A DNA stretch of 40,337 nucleotides from Thermoplasmata archaeon (GTDB lineage: Archaea; Thermoplasmatota; Thermoplasmata; Lutacidiplasmatales; UBA184). Location of the stretch: contig JASHSI010000056.1 in NCBI GenBank assembly GCA_030040915.1, positions 1-40,337 of the forward strand. The letters run 5' to 3'. The position numbers were made by a program, and so were the translations under genes. Positions 3,121-23,133 of this stretch are shown here, one piece after another. Below the pieces are notes generated by a model. The model was given only the letters and a program-made list of their open reading frames with translations, ran no database searches and was not told the DNA's origin. The number at the start of each line of letters is the position of its first letter. The first letter of the stretch is position 1.

Positions 3121-4656
3121 CGTAACCCGTCACGAATGGGCGTGAGGTAGACCAGAACAGTTGGTGTTCCGCACCATCGTCAGTACTTTATCCGGGAAGC
3201 TCTTCCCCCTTCGGTGTGAGTAAACGCCGCCAAGTCGGGCCGGTCACCTTCACCGACGAGGAATGGCACGCCCACTTGGAGTTCGATGAACGCCGAGAAC
3301 GGCAGCTCCGCGCCCTCGAGGTGGAGCTCGCCCAGCTCCGCACCCGAGTGTCCCCACCACCGGAGTGGGCGAAACCCAACGTCCCGAGGAGGCGCGTCAG
3401 AAGCGGGGGGCTCGAGAGGGTCACGAGGCGCACCATCGCCCCGCCCCCCTTCGGATCGATGCCACGGAGGAGGTCGAGCTCGATCGGTGTCCGAAGTGCG
3501 GCGATCCGCTCGGGGAGCCGTTCGCCGTGGATGAACGGCTCGTCGAGGCGATCGTCCCGGGTCACGTGCGCGTGACGCGCTACCGGGTCGGTCGCTATCG
3601 GTGCGAGCGCTGTAGGAAGGTTCGTCGCGCCACGATGGACCCCGAGGTGGCGCCGCCGAAGGCGCGGTTCGGCTGGGGAACTCACTTCCTCGTCGGTCGG
3701 TGGTCGACCGAGGGGCTCACCCACTCGATGATCCAGGACCTCCTGCGGACCGACTACGGTCTGAAGGTGAGTTCGGGGACGATCGACGGGATGCTCCGTC
3801 GATCGGCCGAACCGTTCGCCCCGGTGCACGCCGAGATCGCGAAGTTGGTCCGTCAGGGGAAGAGCGTCCACGTCGACTGGACCGGATGGCGCGTGGATGG
3901 GGTGAACCACCACCTGTGGGACTTCTTGGCGCCGGCGGAACGGGCGGCGCTGTTCATGGTGGCCCGCTCCGCGGGCCACACGGTGCCGGAGCAAGTGTTG
4001 GGGAAGCGTCGGAGGGATCGGGTCTTGGTCTGTGACGGGGGGACGGCGTTCAACACGCTCTCGGGTCGCAAGCAACGCTGCTGGGTCCACCTCCTCCGCC
4101 ACGCGCGGCGCGGGCTCGAGCGGTGGGAGACGGTCTCCGATGCCCCGGACTGGCGCGGGCTGAGGGTCCTCGAGAAGATCGCTCGGGGCGTACTGACGGC
4201 GGCGAAACTCCCGGTGGGTCCCGAGCGAGAAGCGGAAGGACGACGGCTGAGGGCCCACCTCGGTCGATGGTTGAGGGTCGAGCGGGAGGGAGAGGCGGCC
4301 CAGGCGCTGCAGAAGTTCCTCACCAAGCACTCGGAGGAGCTGTGGTGGTGGGCGGAGGGCGAGGTGGCCGCGCAGAACAACCCGGCGGAGCAAGGGCTGC
4401 GGCCGCACATCGCGAAGAAGCGAAAGCTCTCGTGGGGATCGAGGACGGTCGGCGGGGCGGCCCGATTCGCGGAGCTCGCGAGCGTGGCGCAGACGGCGAA
4501 GATGCGAGGGCTGGTCCTCGGGGAGATTGGTATCCGACTCCTCGGTGGACAAACGAACCCTCTTGGACTGGGCACGGGCCCTCCGCGGTAGGCCGGTTGG
4601 TTACACATTCAGTTGTGATTCGTGACGCCCGTCACGCCCGAACGTGAAGGGTTACG
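3121..4656 (+). mobile_element. IS66-type insertion sequence, copy 1
   Basis: A 1.5-kb element around one transposase gene. The ends are imperfect inverted repeats of 27 bp: CGTAACCCGTCACGAATGGG at 3121 and its degenerate complement at 4630-4656 (outer end reading CGTAACCCTTCACG inward). No clear 8-bp target duplication is seen. The second IS in the window (5388-7031) has a related left end: CGTAAC, then 57 nt later AGTACT, an AT-rich TATA-like word and ATCCGGG. Confidence 0.7.
3216..4591 (+). CDS. IS66-family transposase, in two frames (-1 shift)
   Basis: DDE transposase of the IS66 (TnpC) type. The N-terminal frame starts with GTG at 3216 and encodes a leucine-zipper-like helix (ERRERQLRALEVELAQLRTRV). 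The rest lies in the -1 frame: GHEAHHRP, a zinc-binding region CPKCG and CERC, then catalytic regions VHVDWTGW, VLVCDGG and AQNNPAEQGLRP, the last being the IS66 glutamate motif. The switch most simply occurs at the run of six G at 3405-3410, a plausible slippery site; a plain indel is the alternative. A TATA-like AGTACTTTATCC lies about 30 nt before the GTG. Length, about 458 residues after the shift, is normal for the family. Confidence 0.75.
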
Positions 4657-4794
4657 AGAGGGCTGAACTTCTTGGACGTGGTCAAGCAGTCGATAACTGA
4701 AATTGGTCACCCAACGATAGGTCCACCGTCAGTGTTGGTCACAAAGGTGAGCTGATACCGCGCAATTCATTAAGACGCTGTGTTTAGACGTCTG

Positions 4795-5373
4795 CTAGCC
4801 AAGCGAGTATCCAACACTCCCGCCGTACGGCTGTGAATGCTCAATCCAGAACGACGTACCCGCGAGAGACGAATTGGTTGTAAGCCCAGTGTCAAGGACG
4901 AAACGGAAGGTCATGTCTATCGGAACCATCCCGCTCGGCAAGACGCTCCAACGTCCCGTAGACATGTTCCAAACGCCGTCAGCGGCAGTCCCATTGAGGG
5001 CCGTAACACACGCTCCCTGACCCAGGGAAACTGTGTTGGACTCCGGATAAGAAAACTGCGAAGCATTGCTCACCGCAAAGAATAGATTCGAGATCGGCAA
5101 ATTCTGAAAAGAGGTTTCAATCGAGAACGAGTAGCAAACCTCACCTGCAACAGATTTGCAACCGACCGAGCCAGGGTTTACTCCAGTCCATCCAGCCGGG
5201 GCAAATGCAGAGGGGCCAGTAGGCTGCCTCGAAATAATGACCTCGTACGCTAATCCCCCAATCAGAAGTAACGTGATGATGACTCCGACACCTACGACAA
5301 GCCATTTTTGGTTACGATTGGTCGCCCGTGGCTGAGATAACGAGGCACTACTCCTCGGGCTAACTTCGTTCAT
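4795..5373 (-). CDS. membrane-anchored extracellular protein, unknown function
   Basis: 192 residues from the ATG at 5373: a polar N-terminus, one transmembrane helix (WLVVGVGVIITLLLIGGLAY), then about 130 residues of exported domain with N-x-S/T sequons (NAS, NGT, NMS, NSS) and two cysteines around GCKSVAGEVC. No family recognised. The architecture matches the protein at 2376-3038 (basic N-terminus, single TM, glycosylation-type ectodomain), but I see no convincing sequence similarity. Base composition is clearly less GC-rich than the host genes, suggesting transfer. The left end of the second IS (5388) lies 14 nt upstream of the start codon, so the native promoter has probably been displaced; the longer frame to 5424 would begin inside the IS. 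Confidence 0.65.
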   Translation of the reverse strand: MNEVSPRSSASLSQPRATNRNQKWLVVGVGVIITLLLIGGLAYEVIISRQPTGPSAFAPAGWTGVNPGSVGCKSVAGEVCYSFSIETSFQNLPISNLFFAVSNASQFSYPESNTVSLGQGACVTALNGTAADGVWNMSTGRWSVLPSGMVPIDMTFRFVLDTGLTTNSSLAGTSFWIEHSQPYGGSVGYSLG

Positions 5374-5387
5374 CAGCGTTTCAAGGC

Positions 5388-7031
5388 CGTAACTGTTCAC
5401 CTTTCTGCCGGGTCTGATTAACAACTGTCGCTGTTTCGACGAGACCGGAAGTACTAAATCCGGGGCGCACTTCCCCTCCTGCCGAGGGGTCCGCGCTCTC
5501 GGCGGCGACCAAGTTCCTGTTCGCCCCCACCGACGAGGAAGACGCCGAGCCTCTTACCATCTACCCGCCCGAACGCCGAAGGATCCGCGAGCAACTCGAG
5601 CGCTCGGAGCGTCTCGAGCAGGAGGTTCGTGAACTCCGCGAGAAGAACCGACGCCTCCAAGAAGAGCTTCGCCGCTACAAGGCCTGCGCCCCGATACTCG
5701 CCGCCTCCGATCGCACCTCCGAGGCCGGAAGCATCCCCTCGAGTCGAGTGTTTTACCGTCGACCGGTCCATCGAGACTCGCATCCCATGGGGGGTCAGCC
5801 GGGGCACCCAGGGCGGGCGCGCGAACGGCCCGTCCCGAACGCCCCTCCGCTCAAGCTCACCCTGGAACGCTGCACCGAATGCGGTTCGAAGCTCGGCGAA
5901 CCGTTCGCGGTCCGCCGACGGACCATCACCGAGTTCCCTCGACCTCAGCCCCTGGTCTTCGACATCGAGGTCGCCCGCTACAACTGCCCCGGATGTCAGC
6001 GGCGTGTCGAGGCCGAATGCCCATACCCACCCCATCAGCAGTACGGATTCTCGCTCGTTTCCCGGGTCGTTCAGCTCCGACTTCTGGGGCTGAGCACCGC
6101 GAAGATCGTGGACTACCTCGAAGGGGCCCACGGGGTGCGGCTTTCGACCGCCTCGGTCCTCAAGATGGAGCGCTGGTCCGCCGAGTCCCTCGGCCCTCTC
6201 TACGAGGCCCTCAAGGCGCTGATCCCGCACCAGCCCGTCGTTCACGCCGACGAGACGAAGTTCCGGGTGGGAGGGGACAACGGTTGGTGGTGGTCCTTCT
6301 CGACGCCGGAAACGGTGGTCTACCGGATCGCCCCGAGCCGGGGTCACGATGTCGTGGAAGAGGTGCTCCACGGGGCCCGTGGAACGATCGTCCACGAGGG
6401 ATGGAATCCCTACAACGTGATCGACACCGCCGATCACCAGTTCGACCTCCTCCGCGCGAATCGATGGCTGGAGCGCGAGGAGATCCTCCATCGCCTCGAG
6501 CCTCGACCGCTCCTCCAGGCGGTCCCGGCGAAGCTGACCAGCGCGGGACCCCCTCCCCAAGAGTTCATCGAGTTCGCCGACGAGACCCGACGACTGCTCC
6601 GGTTCGCCATCGAATGGTCCTACGAGCACCCCGAGATCTCTCGACGCAAACGGCGGCGATTCTACCGCTGGATGCGGTGGATGATGGCGGACCATCTTCG
6701 GAGGGACTGGCACGACCCCGGGGCAGCCCGGATCGCGAGCGAGCTGTGGAAGCGCCGGGGGATGCTGTTCACGTTCCTGGGGAACCCCGGGGTGAGCTGG
6801 AACAACAACCCGGCGGAGACGGAGGTCCGCCAGGGAGTTCTCTACCGCAAGGTCAGCGGGGGTCGAAGATCGTGGGATGGAGCGCGGTCCCTCGAACGAC
6901 TGATGTCGATCTATCGGACGTGCCGGGAACGAGGGTTACAGTTCGCGAGGGTGCTCGCGGACGCGCTGTCAGGCTCGGGCTACCCAGCGTTTGGAGCGAC
7001 GTCAGCCCCGGCACAAAGCTGACTAGCTACG
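5388..7031 (+). mobile_element. IS66-type insertion sequence, copy 2 (divergent)
   Basis: Left end CGTAACTGTTCACC at 5388; right end GCTGACTAGCTACG at 7018-7031, whose complement matches the left end at 10 of 14 positions. It sits between two divergent genes (starts at 5373 minus and 7055 plus). The region around AGTACTAAATCCGGG (5450-5464) lines up with AGTACTTTATCCGGG in copy 1, so the two elements share ancestry but their transposases are clearly diverged. Confidence 0.6.
5508..7022 (+). CDS. IS66-family transposase without a canonical start
   Basis: IS66-type DDE transposase of about 500 residues. Order: coiled coil (RIREQLERSERLEQEVRELR, near 5580-5660), glycine-rich GGQPGHPG linker, zinc region CTECG and CPGC, then VVHADETKFRV, TIVHEGWNPYN and the glutamate motif WNNNPAETEVRQGVLYRKVSG. 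The frame is open from 5418, but no ATG, GTG or TTG occurs before GTG 5748, which lies after the coiled coil. Either a rare start (for example CTG 5517) is used or the true start has been lost and the copy is inactive. The coordinates given begin at TKFLFAP, where coding similarity to copy 1 becomes visible. Confidence 0.7.
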   Translation, partial: TKFLFAPTDEEDAEPLTIYPPERRRIREQLERSERLEQEVRELREKNRRLQEELRRYKACAPILAASDRTSEAGSIPSSRVFYRRPVHRDSHPMGGQPGHPGRARERPVPNAPPLKLTLERCTECGSKLGEPFAVRRRTITEFPRPQPLVFDIEVARYNCPGCQRRVEAECPYPPHQQYGFSLVSRVVQLRLLGLSTAKIVDYLEGAHGVRLSTASVLKMERWSAESLGPLYEALKALIPHQPVVHADETKFRVGGDNGWWWSFSTPETVVYRIAPSRGHDVVEEVLHGARGTIVHEGWNPYNVIDTADHQFDLLRANRWLEREEILHRLEPRPLLQAVPAKLTSAGPPPQEFIEFADETRRLLRFAIEWSYEHPEISRRKRRRFYRWMRWMMADHLRRDWHDPGAARIASELWKRRGMLFTFLGNPGVSWNNNPAETEVRQGVLYRKVSGGRRSWDGARSLERLMSIYRTCRERGLQFARVLADALSGSGYPAFGATSAPAQS

Positions 7032-7839: not shown

Positions 7840-7871
7840 GGCCTCCGTAATATGGCGCCGGGCGAGAGTGG
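7840..7871. repeat. right copy of the 32-bp composite repeat
   Basis: The 20-bp block GGCCTCCGTAATATGGCGCC (7840-7859) is the reverse complement of 3031-3050. Similarity extends upstream over TGGTGTCG (30 of 34 bases in total). It is followed directly by GGGCGAGAGTGG, the casposon target duplication. Confidence 0.8.
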
Positions 7872-7872
7872 G
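7858..7872. repeat. casposon target-site duplication, left copy
   Basis: CCGGGCGAGAGTGGG occurs here and at 23119-23133, immediately outside the two inverted repeats. The unambiguous core is 11 bp, GGGCGAGAGTG; up to 15 bp are shared because the repeat ends in a G run. Known casposon duplications are about 14-15 bp. Confidence 0.85.
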
Positions 7873-7938
7873 GGGGTATCCCCCTCACCAAGACCCATGC
7901 CTCCTTGACGGGTGGTCAGGGGGTCTCGGGCTACGGCT
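7871..7938 (+). repeat. casposon left terminal inverted repeat
   Basis: Begins GGGGGGTATCCCCCTCACCA and matches the complement of 23053-23120 at 67 of 68 positions (mismatch at 7926). The near identity implies recent insertion or continued selection on both ends. Confidence 0.93.
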
Positions 7939-8032
7939 ACGCTTCGTCGCCAAGACACTAGTTCCGCCTTGGTTGGAGGAGTCATCCCATCGGAACCCGT
8001 CCCATCGCCCGATCCCGCGAGACGGTTCCGCT

Positions 8033-8692
8033 CTATGGTTCCGGGAGGCCAGCTCCGTCGAATCTCTTGAAGACCATCGTAGCTTCGTGGGGCAGGTGGT
8101 CGTCTATCGACTCAATCCACGAGACCAACTCGGTGAGTGAGCAGCTCTCACGACCGATCCGCAGCTCTCTCCGATTCGCGTGGTAGTAGCGAAAAGCGCT
8201 GCGGCCCCAAGCGGGTTCATCAGCTTCGTCAAGGCTTGAGATTACCCAGCCCATGGGCAACTCGCTCGCAGCGCTTTCCAGCCACTCGTCGAGTCGTTCG
8301 TCCACGTGGGCAAACGCGTTTCTTGCCCGTATCGCAGCTCTCGGAGGCGACCCTTCTACAGCGAGTGCTTCTCTGAGCGCCGTCGCCCGGCCTCGCGCCC
8401 GATTGGCCACCTTCCCACCTTGCGACTTAGCCGGGTTCGGCCACAGTATGTTCGACACGGCGGTACCTGCGGCAAGTACTCCGTGGATGCGGAGCCAGAC
8501 TCTCCGATTCCAGAACCTCCGCCCCTCGTCATCCGACGGTGGGTTCTGCCCGATAAGGGCACGTAGTTCCGCGAATGCTGTAAGGGCCTGAGCGCACTCC
8601 TCCCGAAGTTCAATCATGAAGGTTGTCAAGACTTCCGCTCGATCCTCGGTGCCTTTGGGCCCAGGTTGACCCGACCCTGGCATTTCCCTCAC
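8033..8692 (-). CDS. HEPN-type protein, putative toxin RNase
   Basis: 219 residues, mostly helical. RARNAFAHVDERLDEWL carries R124-N-x-x-x-H129, the Rx4H active-site signature of HEPN ribonucleases, placed as usual at the start of a late helix. Family evidence rests on this motif and the helical pattern, so RNase activity is inferred. It is the last gene of the minus-strand casposon operon, 33 nt after the three-TM protein. The start is GTG 8692 or ATG 8683; GGTGAG just before the ATG could serve as ribosome binding site. In context (TIR and membrane protein upstream) it is a plausible effector killing or stalling infected cells. An alternative is a HEPN antitoxin-like or nucleotide-binding role. 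Confidence 0.6.
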   Translation of the reverse strand: MREMPGSGQPGPKGTEDRAEVLTTFMIELREECAQALTAFAELRALIGQNPPSDDEGRRFWNRRVWLRIHGVLAAGTAVSNILWPNPAKSQGGKVANRARGRATALREALAVEGSPPRAAIRARNAFAHVDERLDEWLESAASELPMGWVISSLDEADEPAWGRSAFRYYHANRRELRIGRESCSLTELVSWIESIDDHLPHEATMVFKRFDGAGLPEP

Positions 8693-8725
8693 CAGAAGCG
8701 TCCGGGGATTCCGTGATCCCCCAGG

Positions 8726-9256
8726 TCAAATGAGGTAGAGCGTGAGGCCGATGAACAATAGCAGAAGGGCCGCCGGTACGATGGACTCTACAACCGTACT
8801 CGACGTGTATACGCGCCCCCTGGCTGCCTGAGCCATTTCGGAACCTGTTGTGCGGAAGTTCCATTCGACCGTGAAGACCGCCACCGGCAGTCGCTCTTCC
8901 AGCCGGTTAATGACATGGAACTTCGCTCGATTCAACTGGTTGGAGGCGTAGATTGCGGCGAGCCACGACGCAGTCACAATCACCCCCACGAGGCTCACCC
9001 AAGGCGCAAGTCTCGGAGGAATGACGGGCGAGCCTACGAAAGCCCCTCCGACTCCAATGCCAGCGACGGAGAGGATTACCGATGTGAGCACAAGGTAGTA
9101 CTCGTTCATGGTGGCCCGGCGGTCGCTGACAGCGTCGGCTCTTTCGACGGCAAGACGGTACTGCTTGAGGACGTGCTCTCGATATTCAGGCCCGTACTCA
9201 GTGGGCGTAAGATGAAAGAGTTGGTCCTTTCCGTCTGAGGGTGCTTCTACAGTCAT
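8726..9256 (-). CDS. small three-TM membrane protein, putative defence effector
   Basis: 176 residues. A soluble N-terminal helix (YREHVLKQYRLAVERADAVSDRRATMNEY) is followed by hydrophobic segments at about 54-75, 84-105 and 157-176, with a roughly 50-residue loop between the last two. The helix sequence, QYxLxVExADxxSxRRxxxNxYY, recalls the RipA/SLATT-type small membrane proteins often found beside nucleotide-signal or TIR genes; I recall this resemblance rather than having checked it. Start ATG 9256 lies 3 nt after the TIR stop, so the two are probably co-translated. A membrane-disrupting effector gated by a TIR-made nucleotide is the natural hypothesis. Confidence 0.7.
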   Translation of the reverse strand: MTVEAPSDGKDQLFHLTPTEYGPEYREHVLKQYRLAVERADAVSDRRATMNEYYLVLTSVILSVAGIGVGGAFVGSPVIPPRLAPWVSLVGVIVTASWLAAIYASNQLNRAKFHVINRLEERLPVAVFTVEWNFRTTGSEMAQAARGRVYTSSTVVESIVPAALLLLFIGLTLYLI

Positions 9257-9259
9257 GTC

Positions 9260-9763
9260 CTACCCTGAGTCGAGGTGCCCTCTAATCTCGTCTCGATTCC
9301 AGTACAAGATTGGAGCCCCATGCTCCAGGAGGGGTGGTGGGATTGGGTCGTTTCGGTCACGGAAGATTCTAACCCCGATGACCTTCTTTCCCTGTCGGTA
9401 GCTCTCCTCCAATTCCCAGTTGACTGCTTCACGCGTCGCGGTGTCAGGTCCAATCATGCAGATGGTCATTGACGTCAATCCGATCTGCTCCCGGCAGTTT
9501 GACTTCCAAGCCTCGTCGAACGGCTCCTTTACAGAGTAATCGCGGAACTCCATTCCGAAGTCCGAATCCTTCGCCTGGGCTCGGAGGAGGTTGACTTGGG
9601 CCTCGTCCGCCACGTGGAAGCTGATGAAGACGTTCCTAGTTCGCGGGGGACCAGTTTCGGCCGCCTTGGTCTCCTCCAAACCGGTCTTGAAGACCTTCAG
9701 GCTCGCCGACGGAATCAGAGGGCCGCCTCCGCCGTATCCCCCACCCCCGCCAGTAGCCCCCAT
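9260..9763 (-). CDS. TIR-like protein (ThsB/MTH538 type)
   Basis: 167 residues. A glycine-rich N-terminus (residues 2-15) precedes a TIR-like fold: NVFISFHVADE (44-54), FRDYSV (73-78), SMTICMIGPDTATREAVNWE (98-117) and GKKVIGVRI. E117 in NWELEES is placed like the catalytic glutamate of TIR NADases. The FISFH... and WE motifs match the DUF1863/MTH538 subgroup that includes ThsB, the sensor that makes an NAD-derived signal in Thoeris. The start is ATG 9763, overlapping the queC stop as TGATG; a TTG one codon upstream is possible. No ThsA (SIR2/SLOG or macro-domain) gene is present, so the downstream membrane or HEPN protein would have to be the effector. Confidence 0.8.
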   Translation of the reverse strand: MGATGGGGGYGGGGPLIPSASLKVFKTGLEETKAAETGPPRTRNVFISFHVADEAQVNLLRAQAKDSDFGMEFRDYSVKEPFDEAWKSNCREQIGLTSMTICMIGPDTATREAVNWELEESYRQGKKVIGVRIFRDRNDPIPPPLLEHGAPILYWNRDEIRGHLDSG

Positions 9764-10413
9764 CAAGCACCACTCTTCTTGGCCGAGCGCCGAGCTCGGC
9801 TCGATTTTCTGCGGAGACGTGCAGCGTCGCTAACGGCGTGCGCTCGGTCTCTGCAACTCGAACAGCGGTTGCATGGCCGACGCTCTCCTCGTTGGCATGA
9901 GTACGTTTCTTCAATCGGTGCCCTCAGGCTGAGACCGAGGGCGACAACCTCGGCCTTTGACAAGGAGAGCAATGGCGCCGTAACTACCATTTTGCCTCCG
10001 AGGCCCTCCGAGAGAGAATCCTGAGCGCGGCTGATGAAGTCCTTGGTCTGGTCTGGGTAAAGCGCGTTTGCGACCAGACCGAGGGCAACCGAGCGAGCGC
10101 CAGCGGGATAGCCGATTGCGCCTCCAATCGACACCAAGACGAGATTCCGAGCGGGGAAGAAGGGGTCTGCGGCCCACCGGCCCCCCTTGCGAGTCAGACC
10201 GCTAGGAACCTTCCTCAAGCCTGTCGCGTCCACCCTTATTGGGTTCGGGAGCTTTGCCTCACGGCAGAATCGTCGTAGGGAAGACCACTCTTGTTTCTCC
10301 GCTAGCTGTCCGTAGTCGACGTGCACGGGCAGGACATCGAGGCGTTCTCTCTTGAGCAAGGAGAGCAACACCGAGGAGTCGAGACCACCTGAAGCCAGGA
10401 CAACGATCTTCAT
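9763..10413 (-). CDS. queC: 7-cyano-7-deazaguanine (preQ0) synthase QueC
   Basis: 216 residues with all QueC hallmarks: ATP pyrophosphatase P-loop SGGLDSS (8-14), the FFPARN motif (85-90), and the zinc knot C173, C181, C184, C187 near the C-terminus, followed by a basic lysine/arginine tail. It converts 7-carboxy-7-deazaguanine to preQ0 with ATP and ammonia. No queD, queE or folE lies nearby, so precursors must come from the host, which as an archaeon makes preQ0 for archaeosine in tRNA. Placement 3 nt after the glycosylase and next to a DpdA-like gene argues that this copy feeds DNA modification. Confidence 0.9.
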   Translation of the reverse strand: MKIVVLASGGLDSSVLLSLLKRERLDVLPVHVDYGQLAEKQEWSSLRRFCREAKLPNPIRVDATGLRKVPSGLTRKGGRWAADPFFPARNLVLVSIGGAIGYPAGARSVALGLVANALYPDQTKDFISRAQDSLSEGLGGKMVVTAPLLSLSKAEVVALGLSLRAPIEETYSCQRGERRPCNRCSSCRDRAHAVSDAARLRRKSSRARRSAKKSGA

Positions 10414-10416
10414 CGA

Positions 10417-11112
10417 CTACCGCTCCCTCATGTACTCCCAGATTGCGAGGTCAAGGGCTCCGGATTCTAACCCCGAATTGAATGCCAGCGAGGCGTACGC
10501 ACCCTCAATCTTCGCGTAGCAAGACGCGGACCCAGAGTATGCTGTTTTCTCCCCTACCAACCCACTCTCGGCCATGAACCGGCGCAAGTGAACGTCGAGA
10601 ACCGCTACATCGCGCCCTCTGCCGATGTTCCGGAGGAAGTGGGATGCCTCCTTCAAACCAAGTCCGGGCACGGTACCGGCTAGGGCAGCTCTTGCCTCCT
10701 TTGGGTCAGGGAATCTCTCCAAGAAGCCCATGACTCCTCCGCACCCGGAACGGCCGTAGAAGAGGTGGCCGGCGGCTGACAGCCGACGAGCCTTTTGGCT
10801 AGCGAACCGACAGGAACCGACCCCTACCGTCAAGACTTCGCGGATCTCGTCGACTCGAACGTCCGACGGAGCAGACGACAACCGCGTTAGGATTCCGTGT
10901 CTCGTCAGCCGTTCAAGGCAAGCGTTGACCGCCTCGAAGCGGGTCATAGGCGAAAGGAGGCAGAAGCACATCTCTCGCCACGCTTGCCCCTCGGAGATCT
11001 TCCCGAAGCGGTTGCTGCTCTCGACTTCCCGGGCAGCCCTCCGGTACCGCGAAAGAACCCCGAGAGGTAACAGGGTGCAAGTCGGACGTGGGTAGCGGAC
11101 GCTATCCTGCAC
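10417..11112 (-). CDS. Ogg2-type DNA N-glycosylase/AP lyase
   Basis: 231 residues, HhH-GPD superfamily, closest in motif to archaeal Ogg2 (MjaOgg) enzymes. PGLGLKEASHFLRNIG (149-164) contains the hairpin and catalytic lysine K154; VAVLDVHLRRF (169-179) contains the catalytic aspartate D173. The normal role is excision of 8-oxoguanine with strand cleavage. Here the gene starts with GTG 11112, overlapping the end of the DpdA-like gene by 11 nt, and is followed 3 nt later by queC. This placement inside a deazaguanine DNA-modification cluster suggests it acts on a modified guanine (removal, proofreading or attack on foreign modified DNA), but that is inference; ordinary 8-oxoguanine repair remains possible. 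Confidence 0.82.
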   Translation of the reverse strand: MQDSVRYPRPTCTLLPLGVLSRYRRAAREVESSNRFGKISEGQAWREMCFCLLSPMTRFEAVNACLERLTRHGILTRLSSAPSDVRVDEIREVLTVGVGSCRFASQKARRLSAAGHLFYGRSGCGGVMGFLERFPDPKEARAALAGTVPGLGLKEASHFLRNIGRGRDVAVLDVHLRRFMAESGLVGEKTAYSGSASCYAKIEGAYASLAFNSGLESGALDLAIWEYMRER

Positions 11113-12172
11113 GGCTCACTCGCCCCTGTATTCCAATTTCGCTTGCGGCTTTCAAGAGCTCAACGACCTGCTCCTTGCCCACGAATTCTTGGAGGAAGTC
11201 CGAGACCGTCATGTCGCGGATCATTCCGCGCAGTTTCGTTCCGAAGTCCTGGTAGAAGAGGAGGTTGTGGAGAGCTGCTCGCTCCCGGTCTGGTCCTGGA
11301 AGGTCAGCGCAGAATCGACACTTGCACCCAGTACTGCGGAGGAGAACCGGATCGGTCACCGTCAGCGTTCGGACATCCACCGCGCCCTGGATCCAGTCCA
11401 AGCTATCGAAGGAGTCCGCCCCGGCGAGGGCATAGCAGGCCATTACCACCGGATTTCCGCAACCAAGAACGTGCAGCATCGAGTGCTCGTCGCGTTGATT
11501 CATCGCCCGCCGAATCGCGCTGACGGTTCGCACCCGCTCAAGAAGACTTGGCCCGCATTCGCGATCTGGAATCGCAATACCTACGGGAGCTTCATCGCTT
11601 GCCGCCAATCGTGCCTTCTCGACAATGGATTCTCTAGTCCCCCCGTGGATAATTCGCAGAACCGGGCCCCGCAGCGGGACTACTGCCCGCCCTCTCTCTT
11701 CTGAGCCCTCCCCTCTCGTGCCGGGTGATGTCGGGCCGTCGTACGTAAGCAGGAGGTCATGCGGGAGCGCTCTGGCGGCGTCCGCGTAGTCGTCAGCGGA
11801 CCAGTCCGTGATTCCGAGGACCTGACATTCGAACATGCCGCTATCCAGAAGGATGGTGCAGCCAGCTCCTCTGAGGCCGGCTAGGAAAGTTGTCGCTTTC
11901 GAAATACCCCCCTCGACTCGCTTGCTGCAATCGTACGCGGAAATCAGGGCTCGGGGATACGCCGCCTCTGTCAACAGGCGCACGAACTCCTCAGGCCGAC
12001 CTGCCGAGCAAGTAGATGAGACGGCGGGAAAGTATGTCGGAGTCGCCAGGTTTGGAACCCCTAACCCGACCGCGCTCCGCGCAAGCCCTAGCCGGTGCAG
12101 AATCCGGGCCGCGCTCACACCGGTCGCGGGGAACTTCTCGGACGATAATCCTACGCTTCGAGAAGCCGGCAT
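11102..12172 (-). CDS. DpdA-like DNA 7-deazaguanine transglycosylase (TGT family)
   Basis: 356 residues of the tRNA-guanine transglycosylase barrel family. Visible: D110 in ILLDSG and D256 in ADSFDSLDW at the positions of the two catalytic aspartates, the HVLGCGNP loop, and the zinc site C283-x-C285-x2-C288 with H302. There is no PUA or other tRNA-binding domain, unlike archaeal ArcTGT, and with queC and polB as neighbours a DNA-directed enzyme exchanging guanine for preQ0 is most likely. Start ATG 12172 overlaps the polB stop as TGATG; the much longer open frame upstream is a shadow of polB. The tRNA-modifying alternative cannot be excluded from sequence alone. Confidence 0.78.
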   Translation of the reverse strand: MPASRSVGLSSEKFPATGVSAARILHRLGLARSAVGLGVPNLATPTYFPAVSSTCSAGRPEEFVRLLTEAAYPRALISAYDCSKRVEGGISKATTFLAGLRGAGCTILLDSGMFECQVLGITDWSADDYADAARALPHDLLLTYDGPTSPGTRGEGSEERGRAVVPLRGPVLRIIHGGTRESIVEKARLAASDEAPVGIAIPDRECGPSLLERVRTVSAIRRAMNQRDEHSMLHVLGCGNPVVMACYALAGADSFDSLDWIQGAVDVRTLTVTDPVLLRSTGCKCRFCADLPGPDRERAALHNLLFYQDFGTKLRGMIRDMTVSDFLQEFVGKEQVVELLKAASEIGIQGRVSRAG

Positions 12173-14214
12173 CAGCTTCGCGAAAGGACCCCGCTCTCCG
12201 CGCTCTCCTCCCCTTCCTCCGCCGTCTTGAGGTACGGGTCCTCGAACTTCGGGGTCCACGGCTTCGACTCCATGTCCTCCACCCCCCGGGCCAGCCCCAT
12301 CAGGAACGGGTCCGTCGGCTCGGTCCGATGGGGCCTGGTAGCCGGGTTGTCGGATGGGGTCCACTCGTTTGGCGGGTGCAGGTCCCACCGCTTCCCGATG
12401 GCCGTGAGCTGGAGGTCCTTCGGCAGGACGCGGAACCGCCGCCAGAGGTCCATCCGGTCGTTTGAGAGGGCTGCCCCTATCCCGATGAACCGCTCCCGGC
12501 CGACGACCTGCAGGGTGTGGTCTCCCCTCGTCCAGGCCATCAGGACATCGTCCCACGGGATGTCCCGCTCGGCGAGTCCGCGGGCCCTGGTCGTCCACTT
12601 GCCGTCGGACCCGAGCAGGCGGTAGACTCCGGACTGGACCAAGGTCGCCGCTTCGAACCGTTCCAGGTCCCAGTCTCCCATCTCCGCCGAGACTCGGAGG
12701 TCCAAGGGTTCGGTACTCAGGATTCCGTCAGTCGAGAAGGCGAGGATCGGCTCCGGCTTCTGGCAGGCTGCCGAGTAGACCCTCGCCCGGCACGTCGAGG
12801 CCATGAAGCCGGCGTACTCGATCTGGTGGAAGGTCGGGCGACGGCCCATGCCCTTCTTCCCGCCGAACTGAGCCATCCCTGAGACCGATTGGGCCAGTTT
12901 CCCGTAGATGGCGTTCAGGGTGAGCTTGAGGGCCATCGCAGCAGGGTTGCCCTCGCGCTCGAACCGCTTGCGGAGAGCGTACTTATCGCGGAGCAGTTCG
13001 AGAGGGTGGAAGTCCGGGTCGTTCGGGGCGAAGTGCCATGCGTCGAGGACTCGGATAGACCGCTTGGGGAAGCCGCCGTCTCTTAGGGCGGCGGATAGCT
13101 CGGGCGACCAGATCCACGCCCGGCCTTTCGGCGGGAAGAAGATCGCGCCGTCCGGCGCCCTCCAAGGGAACGGGTAGAACTCCCGGCCCAAGGGAAGGTC
13201 CCAGTGAAGGTGGTAGAGCGAGAAAGGGAGGTCCGGTCGGTAGAGCCGATCCCGGCTCCACTTCCCCGAGGCGATGTTGGGCAGTTCGAGGGCGGCCGAA
13301 GGGTACGCCGAGTTGATGTCGTAGTCGTAGAGCGGGCCGGGGATGCATCCGTAGACTGGGACCTCGATCCGACCGCCGAAGTAGGCGCAACGGGCGGCGC
13401 TCCGGATCTCTGTCCGGATCTCCGGATCGATGTACTTCTTGAACTCGATATCCGAGAGGAACTTCCATGCGGCCGCTCCCGCCCCGTAGTACTGGAAGAG
13501 CTCGATTCCGGCGGTGTCGAAGGCGGCCTTCAGCTGGGTAGTCAGTCGGACCATGAGGCGTAGCTCGGCCTCGTTGTACCGGCGCATGAAGTCGGCTTGG
13601 TCGACAGAGAACTTGGAACGCAGATCCTTGCCCTGAGCGACCAGAGCGTAGTCGGGGTCGTCCTCTCCGACCCAGTCTTCGCACGCCTTGATGAACGCGA
13701 CGTTGTAGAACCCAAGCGTGTCGTAGATCCGTACCGAACGGCCCTTGATGGTCCGGTTGGTCGCCGGGTCGAGCTCGGAGACCTGGAACCACTTCCGAGG
13801 TCTCCATTCGAGGCGGAAGTGTCCGGTCTTGACCTCATGGTGCTCATGCAGGTGTTCGAGCTTCGCCAGGGTCAGGTCGCGCAGGAAGTTGTTCACGTCG
13901 TAGTCGAAGCCGTAGCTGACCCCGCAGAAACGGCTCCCGAACCTCTTCGGCGCGTCGAGGATGAACCGAAAGCAGCGGTAGCTGGAGAGACCGTTCGCCC
14001 AGTCCTCGATGCGACCGCCGGCCGAGTCCTGGAGAAGCGCGTAGACGTGGGTTCCGTCGGGCCGGTTGAAGCCCTCTCCATCGAAGGCGACGAACAGACC
14101 ACGTCGGGCGGGTGATAATCGGCGGGTCCGTCTGCGCTTCTCCTTGTGCGCCGCTTCCCATTTGGGCATGTACCTTTGCTGGTACCGCCGTTTTGCCTCG
14201 CCGGTCAGGGGCAC
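12172..14214 (-). CDS. polB: casposon family B DNA polymerase
   Basis: 680 residues. Proofreading domain: Exo I FVAFDGEGF (D45, E47), Exo II SYGFDYDVNNFL (100-111). Polymerase domain: motif A LYDYDINSAYPSA (D299), motif B KLTLNAIYGKLAQ (430-442), motif C LAFSTDGI (491-498). Size and spacing fit the small, virus-like (protein-primed type) PolB group used by casposons, thought to copy or repair the element. Motif C reads STD where DTD is usual, so one metal-binding aspartate seems replaced by S494. The first 35 residues are strongly basic. GTG start at 14214, 2 nt after the HNH stop. Confidence 0.9.
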   Translation of the reverse strand: MPLTGEAKRRYQQRYMPKWEAAHKEKRRRTRRLSPARRGLFVAFDGEGFNRPDGTHVYALLQDSAGGRIEDWANGLSSYRCFRFILDAPKRFGSRFCGVSYGFDYDVNNFLRDLTLAKLEHLHEHHEVKTGHFRLEWRPRKWFQVSELDPATNRTIKGRSVRIYDTLGFYNVAFIKACEDWVGEDDPDYALVAQGKDLRSKFSVDQADFMRRYNEAELRLMVRLTTQLKAAFDTAGIELFQYYGAGAAAWKFLSDIEFKKYIDPEIRTEIRSAARCAYFGGRIEVPVYGCIPGPLYDYDINSAYPSAALELPNIASGKWSRDRLYRPDLPFSLYHLHWDLPLGREFYPFPWRAPDGAIFFPPKGRAWIWSPELSAALRDGGFPKRSIRVLDAWHFAPNDPDFHPLELLRDKYALRKRFEREGNPAAMALKLTLNAIYGKLAQSVSGMAQFGGKKGMGRRPTFHQIEYAGFMASTCRARVYSAACQKPEPILAFSTDGILSTEPLDLRVSAEMGDWDLERFEAATLVQSGVYRLLGSDGKWTTRARGLAERDIPWDDVLMAWTRGDHTLQVVGRERFIGIGAALSNDRMDLWRRFRVLPKDLQLTAIGKRWDLHPPNEWTPSDNPATRPHRTEPTDPFLMGLARGVEDMESKPWTPKFEDPYLKTAEEGEESAESGVLSRS

Positions 14215-14216
14215 GG

Positions 14217-14677
14217 CTACAACCTCCGCCTCCGCTTAGCCCGGTCGTCAGCTACGTGGAGCAGGCGATTGAGGATCGGGTGGTAGCCGGTGCAACCTAA
14301 GGGCGGAGGTTCGAGCGAACCAAGGCCCATCGCCATCGAGAGCTTCCGGAATCCACGGTAGCAGTACATCGCCTGGTCGGAAACGAGTCGGTCGCCCTTG
14401 ATGGCGTTGCAGCGACGGCAGATGGGGCGGACGTTCATCGGGGAGTCGGGACCTCCGAGGGCGCGAGGGAGCTCGTGGTCCTTTGTGAGATCGGGCGACC
14501 CATCGAATCGACAGCGACCTTCAGGTAGACTCCCTCCACCGTCTCCGCTCCACCCTCCAACGTCGGGTAGAGTTGCGCCGCTGACGGCCGGCTGTAACCC
14601 ATGAAGTCGAGGAACGCTTGTTCCTTTGCGGCCTCGGCCGGGGATGGCCTTCGCTTGCCGTGGTGGGGAGGAGTCAT
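14217..14677 (-). CDS. HNH endonuclease, apparently frameshifted
   Basis: The C-terminal frame reads CRFDGSPDLTKDHELPRALGG then NVRPICRRCNAIKGDRL, a clear HNH domain (DH, N and CxxC zinc ligands). That frame has no good start. The neighbouring frame supplies a normal-looking N-terminus from ATG 14677 (MTPPHHGKRRPSPAEAAKEQ, then DFMGYSRPSAAQLYP) that runs out near 14500. Joining them near the VYLK/GRCRFDG transition (about 14503-14520) gives a protein of about 153 residues. Either a frameshift has inactivated it, recoding occurs, or a sequencing error is present. HNH nucleases are common casposon partners of Cas1 and PolB. It ends 2 nt before polB. Confidence 0.6.
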
Positions 14678-14737
14678 GCCCATCCTGCGGAGCTCCCTCA
14701 GGACAGCCGTCTTGCTGAGGTCCCGGAACTCCGGGTG

Positions 14738-14962
14738 TCAGTCCCGTACCTTTTTGACCCACTCGTTCAGCCAGGCTCGGCGAGCTCTCGCCCGGGCCCG
14801 CCCTTTGGCGAGCAGTTCGTACCGATACCCCCGTGCCCGCTGCTGGTACTGCCGACGCGAAACCTCCTCGCCTGTCGCGACGACACGGTAATGTCGCTCG
14901 GGTCCGGGGATTCGTTCGTAGCCTGGGACGAGCTGTGGAGACTTCCTCCTTCGGGGTACCAC
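14738..14962 (-). CDS. small basic protein
   Basis: 74 residues, highly basic in the second half (RRQYQQRARGYRYELLAKGR, then RARARRAWLNEWVKKVRD). No family recognised; the YQQRARGYRYE segment resembles the RRYQQRYMPKWE start of the element's own PolB, which may be chance composition. It begins 2 nt after the zinc-ribbon gene stop and precedes the HNH gene, so it belongs to the same operon. DNA binding is a guess from charge. Confidence 0.55.
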   Translation of the reverse strand: MVPRRRKSPQLVPGYERIPGPERHYRVVATGEEVSRRQYQQRARGYRYELLAKGRARARARRAWLNEWVKKVRD

Positions 14963-14964
14963 CG

Positions 14965-15282
14965 TCAGCCACCCCCATCCGGGCCTCCGACCTCAGCCAC
15001 GTACTCGGCCCGGCTGAGCCTCGGCTGCGGGTACTCCCCGCGTGGACGCGTTCGGCGATGGCGGGACTCGTTCGCGATCCACGTCCTGACTCGCGAAGCG
15101 GCCCGAGACCTGGACGGGAACCTTCCCTCGAATCCGCAGACCGGACAGATGGCCCAGAACTCGGATTCGGTCGGGTCCGACAGGATGGGGACTCCCTCCG
15201 ACCCGCAGGCGGGGCAGCGGTGCAGGTCGACCGGAGGAGCTACGGGTCTTCTGGAGGGGAGGTCGATGGCCTCACTCGACAT
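14965..15282 (-). CDS. zinc-ribbon protein
   Basis: 105 residues. HRCPACGSEGVPIL and ICPVCGFEG form a two-CxxC zinc ribbon at about residues 21-52. The remainder is arginine-rich (SRSRAASRVRTWIANESRHR). Such small zinc-ribbon proteins are frequent in casposons and archaeal viruses and usually act as DNA-binding or adaptor proteins; the specific role is unknown. ATG 15282 has GGGAGCGAGGG upstream. It lies in the minus-strand operon between the 85-residue gene and the small basic gene. Confidence 0.7.
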   Translation of the reverse strand: MSSEAIDLPSRRPVAPPVDLHRCPACGSEGVPILSDPTESEFWAICPVCGFEGRFPSRSRAASRVRTWIANESRHRRTRPRGEYPQPRLSRAEYVAEVGGPDGGG

Positions 15283-15327
15283 GGCCCTCGCTCCCTACAC
15301 CCGGACGTTCGGACGGGGGGAATGCAC

Positions 15328-15585
15328 TCACAGGAACCCCGTCCAAACGTTCCAACGGGCTCTGGGCGACGATGGGGAACGTTCCCCCGACCGGGGGTTG
15401 TTCGCGGGTGGGGACGTTCCCTGTTGCTCCTCGGGAGAATCCTCGGGAACGGTCCCGGGAACGTCAGGGAACGTTTCGGGAACGCTCTCATCGAACGCCG
15501 AGTGCATTTCCTCGGTCGAGGGCCATCGTCCATTGGCCCGGAAGAAGTCCCCGCGCCAACGGAGCTTTTCCGAGCAATACGGCAT
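15328..15585 (-). CDS. small hypothetical protein carrying repeated GGGAACGTT DNA motifs
   Basis: 85 residues, no family recognised. The first 35 residues (MPYCSEKLRWRGDFFRANGR, then WPSTEEMHSAFDE) look folded; the rest is proline/serine/glutamate-rich and low in complexity (VPETFPDVPGTVPEDSPEEQ). The low-complexity part is encoded by DNA with several GGGAACGTTCCC-type palindromes, so the DNA may be constrained as binding sites rather than the protein. ATG 15585 follows GGGGGGT, 13 nt after the stop of the 53-residue membrane protein. Confidence 0.55.
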   Translation of the reverse strand: MPYCSEKLRWRGDFFRANGRWPSTEEMHSAFDESVPETFPDVPGTVPEDSPEEQQGTSPPANNPRSGERSPSSPRARWNVWTGFL

Positions 15586-15800
15586 GAGTTACCCCCCTTC
15601 AGATGGTGACGATCCCGGTGAGAACCAACGCGACGGCCGCGAAGATTACGAGGCCAAGCAGTCCGAGCAGGGCGAAGCCGAGGGCGGCTGCGACCAGGGC
15701 CCACCCGATGTCGTACGTCGCCTCGGCCCGAGGAACGTTCCCTGCGGGTGTCGCTGTCATGGCGGTGGGCACTCCTCGGCCAACCGGGGGAACGCTCCCT
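15378..15800. repeat. dispersed GGGAACGTTCCC-like palindromic motifs
   Basis: Copies or near copies: GGGAACGTTCCC at about 15378, GGGACGTTCCC at about 15411, GGGAACGGTCCC then GGGAACGTCAGGGAACGTTT at about 15450-15475, GGAACGTTCCC at about 15733, GGGAACGCTCCC at about 15790. They cover two short coding regions of the casposon. The clustering suggests binding sites for an element-encoded regulator or replication protein (inference). Confidence 0.55.
15599..15760 (-). CDS. 53-residue membrane peptide
   Basis: A short gene read directly from the sequence: MTATPAGNVPRAEATYDIGW followed by about 30 consecutive hydrophobic residues (ALVAAALGFALLGLLGLVIF and AAVALVLTGIVTI). One long or two short transmembrane helices. 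It sits in line with the operon, starting at the end of the AbrB-like gene (an ATGA overlap in one reading frame) and ending 13 nt before the next gene. High third-position GC supports coding. Function unknown; small hydrophobic proteins in mobile elements can be holin-like or toxin-like. Confidence 0.6.
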   Translation of the reverse strand: MTATPAGNVPRAEATYDIGWALVAAALGFALLGLLGLVIFAAVALVLTGIVTI

Positions 15801-16034
15801 CACGTTCCTCTGGGGAATCCTCGGGGTTTCGAGACGTCCCCCCACCCCTCCGGGGTCCGTACCCCCGAGCGCTGGTACCAGCAGGAGGTTCCTCCCGAGC
15901 CGGAGGGTCACGCGATCCCCAGGTTTCAGTCCGCGAGCGCGTGCCCAGCGTAGGGGGATCGTTACCGCGATGGAAGTCGGGCCGGTTCGGTAGAGGGTCG
16001 CTCCGACCTCGCCCGTTTCGACGGTCGCGTCCAT
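15757..16034 (-). CDS. AbrB/SpoVT-type regulator, end uncertain
   Basis: From ATG 16034: GATLYRTGPTSIAVTIPLRW then ARGLKPGDRVTLRL and NLLLVPA, a complete swapped-hairpin AbrB domain of about 55 residues. After this the original frame stays open to 15240 through two other genes, which is unlikely to be real. The -1 frame instead ends at TGA 15757-15759, overlapping the next start as ATGA. The coordinates use that end, implying a tail in another frame or a frameshift; the true stop is undecided. Being first in the long minus operon and facing a dyad-rich divergent promoter (16057-16100), it is a good candidate autoregulator. Confidence 0.6.
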
Positions 16035-16056
16035 ATTCGTGTCCAGATAACGATAA

Positions 16057-16100
16057 GGCTACAGTTCGCATCACCCCTCCAACTGTAGGTTACTGTAGCC
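16057..16100. promoter_or_regulatory. divergent operator with three ACTGTAG half-sites
   Basis: GGCTACAGT (16057-16065) pairs perfectly with ACTGTAGCC (16092-16100), and a further AACTGTAG (16081-16088) lies between, also dyad to CTACAGTT at 16059-16066. The array fills the gap between the AbrB-like gene (minus) and the 16101 gene (plus) and touches the latter's start codon. Probably the binding site of the AbrB-like protein or another element regulator. Confidence 0.7.
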
Positions 16101-16859
16101 ATGACGGGGATACCACTGAGCGACAGGAAGCTGGAGCGACTGTTTCTCGCCTGCCTCAAAGGGAAGAGCCTTGGGCTAGGGCCGACCGACCTTGTCACCT
16201 GTTATGTCCAACTCCACAGGAAGTCCGAGAAGACAGGCTGGACTCACCTCGAACGGGTAAGGAAGGGAATGGCGGGCGGGACACTCCGGCGAATCGTTTC
16301 GTTCAAGGGGCCCAATGGGGAGCGTTTCGGGGATGCGGAGAACGCCGAGTTCTTGCAGCGAAAGGCCGACGTGGAAGAGAAACCGCCCGAGGTCGCGAAC
16401 GCGATCTGGCACCTCGGGGGCCGCTACCAGAATTGCCCCGTTCGTCTGAGCTGGGAGTACTGCCCGTACACCAACCGACTTCGACAGGTCGCAGTGGTCA
16501 GAGTCGGAGTAGCGGACTTCATGCGATGCAGCATCTGCCATCGGTTTCACTTCATGGGGCTAAGCCCGAAGGTCAGCAACACCCGCCCCCAAGTGTGGGA
16601 GCTTGACCCTGGCATTTGCTGGCGGGACTACGAGGACCAGCTTACGGTCGAACTGATCGGCGATCCCAACCGGCCGGACCCAAAGATCAACCGGATGCAG
16701 CCCACAGAAATCGAGCGGGTGCGAAAGGGCGGGAGGTGGATTGGCATGAGACTTCGCATTTCCTGGGACGAGGACCCGTACAAGCGGATGTACCTCGGGC
16801 AGTGGGAGCATCGAAAGAAGACCTTGACCGCGTCGACAAACGTTCCTGTCGAAGGGTAG
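16101..16859 (+). CDS. hypothetical casposon protein with one CxxC
   Basis: 252 residues, not recognised. It contains FMRCSICHRFHFMGLSP near residues 140-156 (C-x2-C with a following H, a possible zinc site) and a conserved-looking WEYCPYTNRLRQVAVVRVG stretch; the C-terminus is rich in W, R and K (RKGGRWIGMRLRISWDEDPY). ATG 16101 lies directly against the operator array and is probably leaderless. It is divergent from the main operon and precedes cas1, so a role in transposition, replication or regulation is possible but unproven. Confidence 0.65.
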   Translation: MTGIPLSDRKLERLFLACLKGKSLGLGPTDLVTCYVQLHRKSEKTGWTHLERVRKGMAGGTLRRIVSFKGPNGERFGDAENAEFLQRKADVEEKPPEVANAIWHLGGRYQNCPVRLSWEYCPYTNRLRQVAVVRVGVADFMRCSICHRFHFMGLSPKVSNTRPQVWELDPGICWRDYEDQLTVELIGDPNRPDPKINRMQPTEIERVRKGGRWIGMRLRISWDEDPYKRMYLGQWEHRKKTLTASTNVPVEG

Positions 16860-16884
16860 TACCCTACTCGGGTGGCGCTCCGGG

Positions 16885-17022
16885 CTATGCCGACGAGGTC
16901 TTAGCCGCCCTCTTCCGCCGTCGTCGGTACTTCCTCATGTAGGCAGCCCGCTCGGCCCGGTGCCTCTCGAACCACGCCTTGGTCTTCGCGGCTCGCCTCT
17001 TCTTCGAGCGGAAGGGGCACAT
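16885..17022 (-). CDS. 45-residue very basic peptide
   Basis: Read directly: MCPFRSKKRRAAKTKAWFER then HRAERAAYMRKYRRRRKRAA and KTSSA. More than 40% lysine plus arginine, no cysteine pair, likely nucleic-acid binding. The RAAYMRKYRRRRK part resembles the AKRRYQQRYMPKWE start of PolB in style (basic, tyrosine-rich), so it may share a DNA- or primer-binding role; this is weak. GGGAGAG lies 9 nt upstream of the ATG. It stands alone on the minus strand between two plus-strand genes. Confidence 0.5.
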   Translation of the reverse strand: MCPFRSKKRRAAKTKAWFERHRAERAAYMRKYRRRRKRAAKTSSA

Positions 17023-17087
17023 GCTACCGCTCTCCCAAGTAGGCCCGACCCATGAGGCTGTCGTTCCCGTGGTATGGTCGCCCGAAG

Positions 17088-17124
17088 CCCTTATTATGCG
17101 GGGGTTGTTACGCGTAACAACCCC
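17088..17124 (+). promoter_or_regulatory. cas1 promoter with perfect 24-bp palindrome
   Basis: CTTATTATG (17089-17097) is a TATA-like box. It is followed by a perfect 24-bp palindrome at 17101-17124 (half-site GGGGTTGTTACG), flanked on both sides by TATGCG, ending 1 nt before the casposase ATG at 17126. The palindrome lies between TATA and start codon, the classic place for an archaeal repressor operator; in RNA it would form a hairpin. Confidence 0.75.
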
Positions 17125-17125
17125 T

Positions 17126-18460
17126 ATGCGTCCCCTCCTAATCTCAGGCTTTGGAACTTGCCTCTACACTCGGAAGGGGCTTGTCGTGGACGAACGGGAG
17201 GCTGGAACCGCGACCGAGTACCCACCCCATCAACTTCCCTTCGACTGGGTTGTCGTGGACAACTACACCGGCTACGTCTCCTGGTCCGCCCTTCGGTTCC
17301 TGATGGCCCACACGATCCCGGTCGTCCACATGGCCTGGAACGGAAACCTCTACGGTGTCACAGCCCCGCCCGGACCCATCAGCGCCAGGGTCAAGCTCGG
17401 CCAGTACCGGACCTACACCGACGCGTCCCGGCGGGTAGCCTGCGCGTCGGCCTTCCTTCGGGCCAAACTCGCCCTCTCTATCCGGCATATGTCCGATATG
17501 GCCCATATGTATGGCATATGTCCGACAGGGCTGAAGGAGGAGGTTGAACGCTATCCCGAAACCCGTTGGACCGACATCAATCGGCTCCTGGAGTTCGAGG
17601 CGAAGTGCGCGAACATCTACTGGCGCGAGTACCGAAAAGCGGTCGAGGCCCTCTGGCCGGGATCCGGCTTCATCAGCCGGGGCAACACGTCGTACTCGTG
17701 GACCCGAAACGCGGCCGACCCCATCAACGCCCTCCTGAACTACGGATACGCGATCTTGGAGGCCCGGTGCAGGGTCGCGGTCGTCCGGGCGGGATTCGAC
17801 CCGACCATCGGCTACCTCCACTCGATAGCGCCCTCCAAACACCCCCTGGTCTACGACTTCCAGGAGCTCGGGCGCGCCTTGGTCGATTCGGTCGTACTCG
17901 AAATGGTCCGGGCCGACCCCGCCATCCGGAAGAAGGGGGCCTTCGTCCGGACGACGGACTGGGGACTCCGGCTCGCCCCCGATACAGCCAAGGCGCTCAT
18001 CGCCCGGCTCTCCTTCGCCTTCTCCCGGAAGGTCAAGTACGAGAGGGTCCCGGTGACGTGGGAGACGGCCCTCCTTCGGGAAGCTCAGCGGTTCGCGGAG
18101 GAGGTCTCGATGGAGCGCCGGAAGCCTCGGGTCTTCGCATTCGACCTTCCGCTTCCCGAGGTCCACCCCCCGACTCTCGGAGCCTCGGACCTGGCTGAGA
18201 AGATCGGGGGCCTCTCGGTCCCCGAGGCCCGGAAGCTCGGGATCCCGAAGACGACCCTCTGGTACCAACAGAGGCGGCTACGGCAGGGGGCGCCGCTGAG
18301 GGTGTACCGGAAGGTGGCCCGGCGGATTGAAGGCGCGGCCATTTCACATACTGATGCGACCGCACCTACCGTTTCGCGAGGGGTCTCCCTCCCTCCTAAA
18401 TACCCCAGACCCCCCATCGCGAAAGAAGAGCAGTCGCGAGGTCAACGGCATCGAGAATGA
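17126..18460 (+). CDS. cas1: Cas1 casposase (casposon integrase)
   Basis: 444 residues. N-terminal strand domain (PLLISGFGTCLYTRKGLVVD, then LPFDWVVVDNYTGYVSWSAL), then the helical Cas1 domain: LLEFEAKCANIYW with E158, NALLNYGYAILEARCRVAVV (201-220), AGFDPTIGYLHS with H232, and LVYDFQELGRALVD with D244/E247. These match the metal-binding E, H, D triad of Cas1. A C-terminal extension carries a helix-turn-helix (LSVPEARKLGIPKTTLWYQQ, about 375-394), as in casposases but not CRISPR Cas1. No cas2 or array is near. It integrates the element's inverted-repeat ends into the tRNA-adjacent target. ATG 17126 was chosen from the promoter/operator position; the upstream open frame lacks Cas1 similarity. 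Confidence 0.93.
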   Translation: MRPLLISGFGTCLYTRKGLVVDEREAGTATEYPPHQLPFDWVVVDNYTGYVSWSALRFLMAHTIPVVHMAWNGNLYGVTAPPGPISARVKLGQYRTYTDASRRVACASAFLRAKLALSIRHMSDMAHMYGICPTGLKEEVERYPETRWTDINRLLEFEAKCANIYWREYRKAVEALWPGSGFISRGNTSYSWTRNAADPINALLNYGYAILEARCRVAVVRAGFDPTIGYLHSIAPSKHPLVYDFQELGRALVDSVVLEMVRADPAIRKKGAFVRTTDWGLRLAPDTAKALIARLSFAFSRKVKYERVPVTWETALLREAQRFAEEVSMERRKPRVFAFDLPLPEVHPPTLGASDLAEKIGGLSVPEARKLGIPKTTLWYQQRRLRQGAPLRVYRKVARRIEGAAISHTDATAPTVSRGVSLPPKYPRPPIAKEEQSRGQRHRE

Positions 18461-18582
18461 CGCCTAGGGGTGGTCGACAACTCCAGCTCGACGAAAGTTC
18501 GTCCAGCCAATACAAGAGGGTCCCTCTCGCAAGAGATCATCTGAATCATGAACCCCGTCGTTTGAAGCCGGAGCGGGGCACG

Positions 18583-20091: not shown

Positions 20092-20095
20092 GTTA

Positions 20096-22719: not shown

Positions 22720-22764
22720 AACTCAGCGAAGGGGCAAGGCGAGGTGAATAGGACCCTGCACAAT

Positions 22765-22790: not shown

Positions 22791-22805
22791 GCACCATGGC
22801 AGGTC

Positions 22806-22994: not shown

Positions 22995-23020
22995 CTCCGA
23001 TTCCAAGTTCCCAGTATGCC

Positions 23021-23110
23021 CGTCAACCCGCTCGGGTCTTGGTGAGGGGCGAAGCCGTAGCCCGGGACCCCCTGACCACCCGTCAAGGAGGCATGGGTCT
23101 TGGTGAGGGG
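23021..23110 (-). repeat. subterminal direct repeat of the right casposon end
   Basis: GGGTCTTGGTGAGGGG occurs at 23034-23049 and again inside the inverted repeat at 23095-23110, each preceded by CGTCAA. The spacing of about 60 bp suggests paired casposase binding sites. The left end lacks a good second copy (only GTCGCCAAGACAC at about 7946). Confidence 0.7.
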
Positions 23111-23120
23111 GATACCCCCC
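23053..23120 (-). repeat. casposon right terminal inverted repeat
   Basis: Complement of 7871-7938 with one mismatch in 68. It ends GATACCCCCC at 23120, directly against the target-site duplication. Confidence 0.93.
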
Positions 23121-23133
23121 GGGCGAGAGTGGG
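23119..23133. repeat. casposon target-site duplication, right copy
   Basis: CCGGGCGAGAGTGGG, identical to 7858-7872. Its last bases (23130-23133) are the discriminator and the final three bases of the tRNA-Val acceptor stem, so the target is the tRNA 3' end. Confidence 0.85.

Follow-up and report, generated by a model that had tools for sequence, protein, structure and literature searches.

A casposon-borne archaeal operon predicted to apply the deazaguanylation module of type IV CBASS to a TIR protein

Introduction

In type IV CBASS the CD-NTase starts with MGGS, and Cap9 couples 7-carboxy-7-deazaguanine (CDG) to its N-terminal glycine; in the qatABCD system the QatB protein has an MGTS start that is essential (PMC13279940, PMC11996544). 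The Ogg2 glycosylases also bear on the locus reported here. Residues that form their DNA wedge have been assigned their roles (PMC5069365), and the C-terminal lysine of these enzymes senses 8-oxoG, its deletion killing 8-oxoG cleavage while sparing the AP-lyase activity (PMC3397491).

The window analysed here, a whole stretch of 40,337 nt from a Thermoplasmata archaeon (contig JASHSI010000056.1), holds an operon that resembles type IV CBASS in its Cap9-like QueC, its Cap10-like TGT and a partner protein with an MG/Gly N-terminal tail, and also in having a membrane-protein neighbour, as the CBASS locus L040 does. Unlike type IV CBASS, however, it has no CD-NTase, its MGG-type protein is a TIR protein, and an Ogg-fold gene is present in 83 of the 85 loci compared. 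With qatABCD the operon shares a QueC-family protein and a partner with an N-terminal glycine motif, but no KAP ATPase, QatB or TatD was seen, and the operon QueC is short with a near-canonical active site. Its TIR domain is closest to the ThsB models and structures of Thoeris, whereas ThsA was not found among the genes examined beside the TIR gene (by Pfam these are 8xMP, casposon and restriction-modification genes only) and the TIR protein comes with a glycine tail and with QueC, TGT and Ogg genes. In contrast to dpd DNA modification, the operon has no DpdA match and its neighbours are TIR and membrane genes.

Results

As shown in Table 1, the TGT, Ogg-fold, queC, TIR and membrane-protein genes lie head to tail. 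The ATG of the TGT gene overlaps the polB stop codon as TGATG, the Ogg start overlaps the TGT gene by 11 nt (11102-11112) and queC follows after 3 nt (10414-10416), which agrees with both spacings given in the original prediction made from this DNA. That prediction had recognised the TGT-Ogg-queC set but neither the membrane protein nor the TIR gene, whose product has an MG/Gly tail: the unit reaches past 10417, through QueC, TIR and the membrane protein, to 8726. PADLOC recognised the TGT, QueC and ThsB-like TIR genes only, and Ogg had no model match. A gene of the 8xMP family also follows the TIR gene in loci L041 and L042; 57 of 79 loci have a membrane gene of SLATT, DUF4231 or 8xMP-like type, and at some others a TPR-S/TRAF-binding gene stands in its place.

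Table 1. Features of the operon and of the casposon that carries it (window coordinates)
Feature	Position	Strand	Match or remark
Casposon DNA polymerase B_2 (polB)	12172..14214	minus	PF03175, 2.8e-12
TGT-fold, Cap10-like gene	11102..12172	minus	Pfam TGT PF01702, 2.8e-7
Ogg2-fold HhH glycosylase/lyase gene, divergent	10417..11112	minus	231 aa; Ogg-HhH PF22175, 3.8e-27
queC, Cap9-like	9763..10413	minus	QueC PF06508, 1.8e-35
ThsB-like TIR gene	9260..9763	minus	ATG at 9763, stop at 9260; starts MGATGGGGGYGGGG; PF08937 (ThsB_TIR), 1.9e-15
Gly-rich N-terminal tail of TIR protein	9722..9763	minus
8xMP membrane protein gene, candidate effector	8726..9256	minus	PF24838, 2.2e-27
Casposon HNH endonuclease	14217..14978	minus	PF01844/PF14279
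Cas1 (casposase)	16979..18460	plus	PF01867, 4.1e-43
Casposon left terminal inverted repeat	7871..7942		72 nt, 97% complementary to 23049-23120
Casposon right terminal inverted repeat	23049..23120		beside tRNA-Val 23129-23202
Target-site duplication, copy 1	7858..7872		CCGGGCGAGAGTGGG, 15 nt; identical to 23119-23133; overlaps repeat end by 2 nt
Target-site duplication, copy 2	23119..23133		tRNA-Val 3' end

The operon is cargo of a complete-looking casposon (7871-23120). This element is like the known casposons in its Cas1, PolB and HNH genes, its inverted repeats and its target duplication at a tRNA 3' end; it differs in what it carries, an immune-type operon together with HsdM/HsdS and a MamI-like enzyme. 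The HsdM, HsdS and MamI-like endonuclease genes occupy 18457-22719, with no HsdR among the genes scanned, and two IS66 transposase genes (3365-7022) lie just outside the left casposon end. Since 11 of 101 family genomes have Cas1 relatives and Ogg was found in none of the other genus and family genomes among those listed, the operon looks newly acquired by the host lineage. No casposon genes were found within the L041 sequence examined.

A scan with a TGT profile over one genome per species (84,980 species) gave 153 confirmed relatives, and the best 80 of these 153, four Rhizobiaceae plasmids and the window make up the 85 loci studied. The order TGT-Ogg-QueC-TIR is kept in 77 of them, the remainder being mostly contig ends: in four, on short or cut contigs, both queC and TIR are missing, another two are without Ogg, and in the last two no TIR is recognised in that position. 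Ogg adjoins the operon TGT in 83/85 loci, which, with the full order in 77/85, places the arrangement far beyond chance. The hosts are Thermoplasmata, Thorarchaeota, Acidobacteria, Planctomycetes, Proteobacteria and others, and plasmids carry the operon too. In a seeded search for CD-NTase genes the 85 loci gave no match, the only one being at the separate CBASS locus L040, and SMODS had no match in the host assembly. In a proteobacterial branch (L035-L038, L058 and others) there is a PfkB-like gene, and a second TIR is fused to the TGT N-terminus. Among viral contigs, single-sequence Ogg and TGT scans found nothing, as did a TGT search of phage records; a scan of viral contigs with a TIR profile gave two loci, one of them complete. 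The complete one (L134), on an IMG/VR contig 82,665 bases long, has the whole PfkB-TIR/TGT-Ogg-QueC-TIR-SLATT set.

The transglycosylase had been called DpdA-like, and the Ogg gene beside it had been taken as part of a guanine-replacement pathway. The comparisons do not bear this out. Searched by sequence against the PDB, the TGT protein finds Cap10 (9ntn) as its best match, at 7.1e-9 with the single sequence and 3.9e-23 with a profile (arcTGT 6.4e-11), and the Cap10-CdnD-NDG complex, again 9ntn, is the top fold match of its AlphaFold model (pLDDT 84.8). In an NCBIfam scan DpdA gave no match and arcTGT fell far under its cut-off. The protein is nearer to Cap10 than to any nucleic-acid TGT, and no other dpd genes were present among the neighbours scanned. 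Because the TGT and QueC are Cap10- and Cap9-like, and because CBASS Cap9 modifies a protein N-terminus and not DNA, the gene set does not correspond to a DpdA-type DNA pathway. Even so, D110-S111-G112 and F255-D256 of the TGT are invariant in 32/32 relatives, and these acidic residues would serve a transglycosylase that inserts 7-deazaguanine into DNA, with Ogg excising the base or restricting modified viral DNA. A CxCxxC zinc-type motif is present in the TGTs of the window and L041-L044 and absent from the other 27 aligned.

The Ogg-fold protein bears on the same explanation from its own side. Its AlphaFold model (pLDDT 93.0) matches MjaOgg (3knt), and K154 and D173 (numbered from the GTG at 11112), which had been noted as intact, are invariant in 32/32 relatives. 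The window protein shares with the OGG2 enzymes MjaOgg and SsoOgg the fold, the catalytic Lys and Asp and the RF wedge (R102-F103), but the operon Oggs form a clade of their own, separate from 29 canonical archaeal Ogg2 (support 100/100), and lack the lysine that discriminates 8-oxoG. The last residue is K or R in 29/29 canonical archaeal proteins (FK/YK/FR tail), and this tail is absent in 32/32 operon Oggs. With the sensing lysine lost, 8-oxoG is an unlikely substrate, and 8-oxoG repair was rejected as the role of the protein on this ground.

Excision of a guanine replacement from DNA draws further support from the retained catalytic and wedge residues of Ogg and from the near-constant pairing of Ogg with the TGT. 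Against it, apart from the Cap10 likeness and the missing dpd genes, are the lost 8-oxoG sensor and the fact that the TIR protein, its MGG tail and the membrane gene are left unexplained, and we regard it as very unlikely. What survives of the original prediction is the coupling of the two families, for which an absence of co-occurrence elsewhere had been named as the contrary outcome: the pairing in 83/85 loci is widespread, while excision of a modified guanine as DNA editing is mostly replaced by the reading developed below; this Ogg might still restrict modified viral DNA.

For QueC, a six-row profile that included one CBASS member matched Cap9 best (3.5e-35). With a 31-row profile (A7) canonical QueC scored slightly over Cap9, which counts against the Cap9 identity. 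In 30 of 31 relatives the motif reads YGQ(x)5E, without the canonical His of YxQxHxxE, as has been published for Cap9 (PMC13329287). A canonical QueC with YGQRHxxE and YPDC is encoded elsewhere in the host assembly, on contig C127. The spacing of the zinc cysteines was considered as a mark of Cap9 and dropped, the host's canonical archaeal QueC being spaced identically. A search for the PF01242 QueD family found it in 0 of 16 host-genus genomes (16/16 searched), most of which have QueC and arcTGT. Given the absence of this usual family, the source of CDG is a difficulty for the deazaguanylation reading, and in the host genus CDG is either made by another enzyme or salvaged.

The operon QueC retains its PP-loop, zinc cysteines and PxRN residues, and so could make a free small molecule, such as preQ0 or an amide, to serve a TIR defence as its signal or cofactor, while TGT and Ogg act on tRNA or nucleosides. 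The weak match of the Ogg fold to the queuine-salvage glycosidase DUF2419 (rank 8, rmsd near 10) fits with this. We consider it unlikely: the canonical His is lost, and a free product gives no reason for the MGG start to occur only in the TIR protein next to QueC.

The profile of that TIR protein matches the ThsB structures 6lhy and 9b7d, as well as ThsB-type TIR models, and a glutamate (E117), the catalytic residue of TIR enzymes, is invariant in every aligned member. With start codons inferred from sequence and not measured, in 76 of 79 loci the TIR gene that immediately follows queC can be read as starting with MGG and a Gly/Ser tail. The MGG start was found in 0/30 other TIRs of these loci, 0/38 TGT-fused TIRs and 0/6 outside TIRs, and in none of 48 TGT, 85 Ogg, 83 QueC, 40 membrane and 33 PfkB genes, that is, in 0 of more than 350 control genes. 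The CD-NTase of the type IV CBASS locus L040 starts with MGGSGGG. Three loci count against the pattern: the window TIR reads MGATGGGGG, not MGG, though glycine 2 is kept; its closest relative, L041, reads MTAGGGGG, without glycine at position 2; and L052 reads MAGSGGG. These deviations, and the fact that Gly-rich linkers are common, favour a flexible linker, or a site of modification unrelated to QueC, within a loose defence island. The fixed order in 77/85 archaeal and bacterial loci and the missing MGG in the controls speak strongly enough against it that we hold it to be highly improbable. From these sequences we infer that the TIR protein is the predicted acceptor of an N-terminal deazaguanine, and would be a second kind of signalling enzyme that serves as substrate of the module.

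Discussion

The operon is real and recurrent and, judged by its sequences, of immune type, and the TIR form appears new among the systems with a deazaguanylation module. No TIR version of such a system came up in the part of the literature searched, and an earlier mention is possible. Homology and gene context point to a defence role. Our preferred reading, to which we give a probability of roughly 70%, is a TIR-based immune operon that would use the protein-deazaguanylation module of type IV CBASS, with the TIR protein replacing the CD-NTase as substrate.

In the scheme we propose, the Cap9-like QueC would activate CDG with ATP and couple it to the first glycine of the flexible TIR tail, and the Cap10-like TGT would bind the tagged N-terminus and assemble a complex with the TIR protein, as the solved Cap10-CdnD complex suggests. 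Ogg is taken as DNA-contacting since its DNA-facing residues and its K/D pair are kept and the 8-oxoG sensor is lost. The protein may bind DNA or a 7-substituted deazaguanine and is probably the DNA-contacting or sensing part, which might sense invading DNA or act on a guanine-like base; this is the weakest step of the scheme. Once licensed, the TIR protein may make or destroy an NAD-derived nucleotide, by analogy with Thoeris, and the 8xMP/SLATT membrane protein may be the effector, by analogy with SLATT precedents.

A bolder version, which we think quite unlikely, is that the TGT swaps the TIR-borne deazaguanine into invader nucleic acid, leaving the TIR protein glycosidically joined to DNA or RNA, and that Ogg excises or senses that base. 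It leans on the intact DSG and FD residues and on the N7-side pocket of Ogg, opened by the loss of the lysine.

If the protein-deazaguanylation reading holds, tagging an N-terminal glycine with a nucleobase would seem to be a portable module of immunity that licenses two unrelated classes of signalling enzyme, CD-NTases and TIR proteins. About 80 loci are now known for this predicted TIR-type deazaguanylation operon. They raise the question of what an Ogg-fold enzyme probably unable to recognise 8-oxoG does in immunity, and the casposon with its immune-type operon ties casposons to defence cargo. A variant on a Rhizobium plasmid (L039, 4962-7917) is possibly related to the module as well: it has dgt, an Ogg-fold gene, a small Gly-rich protein with an MSGSG start, a PfkB-like gene and QueC, and these genes adjoin multiubiquitin/ThiF genes.
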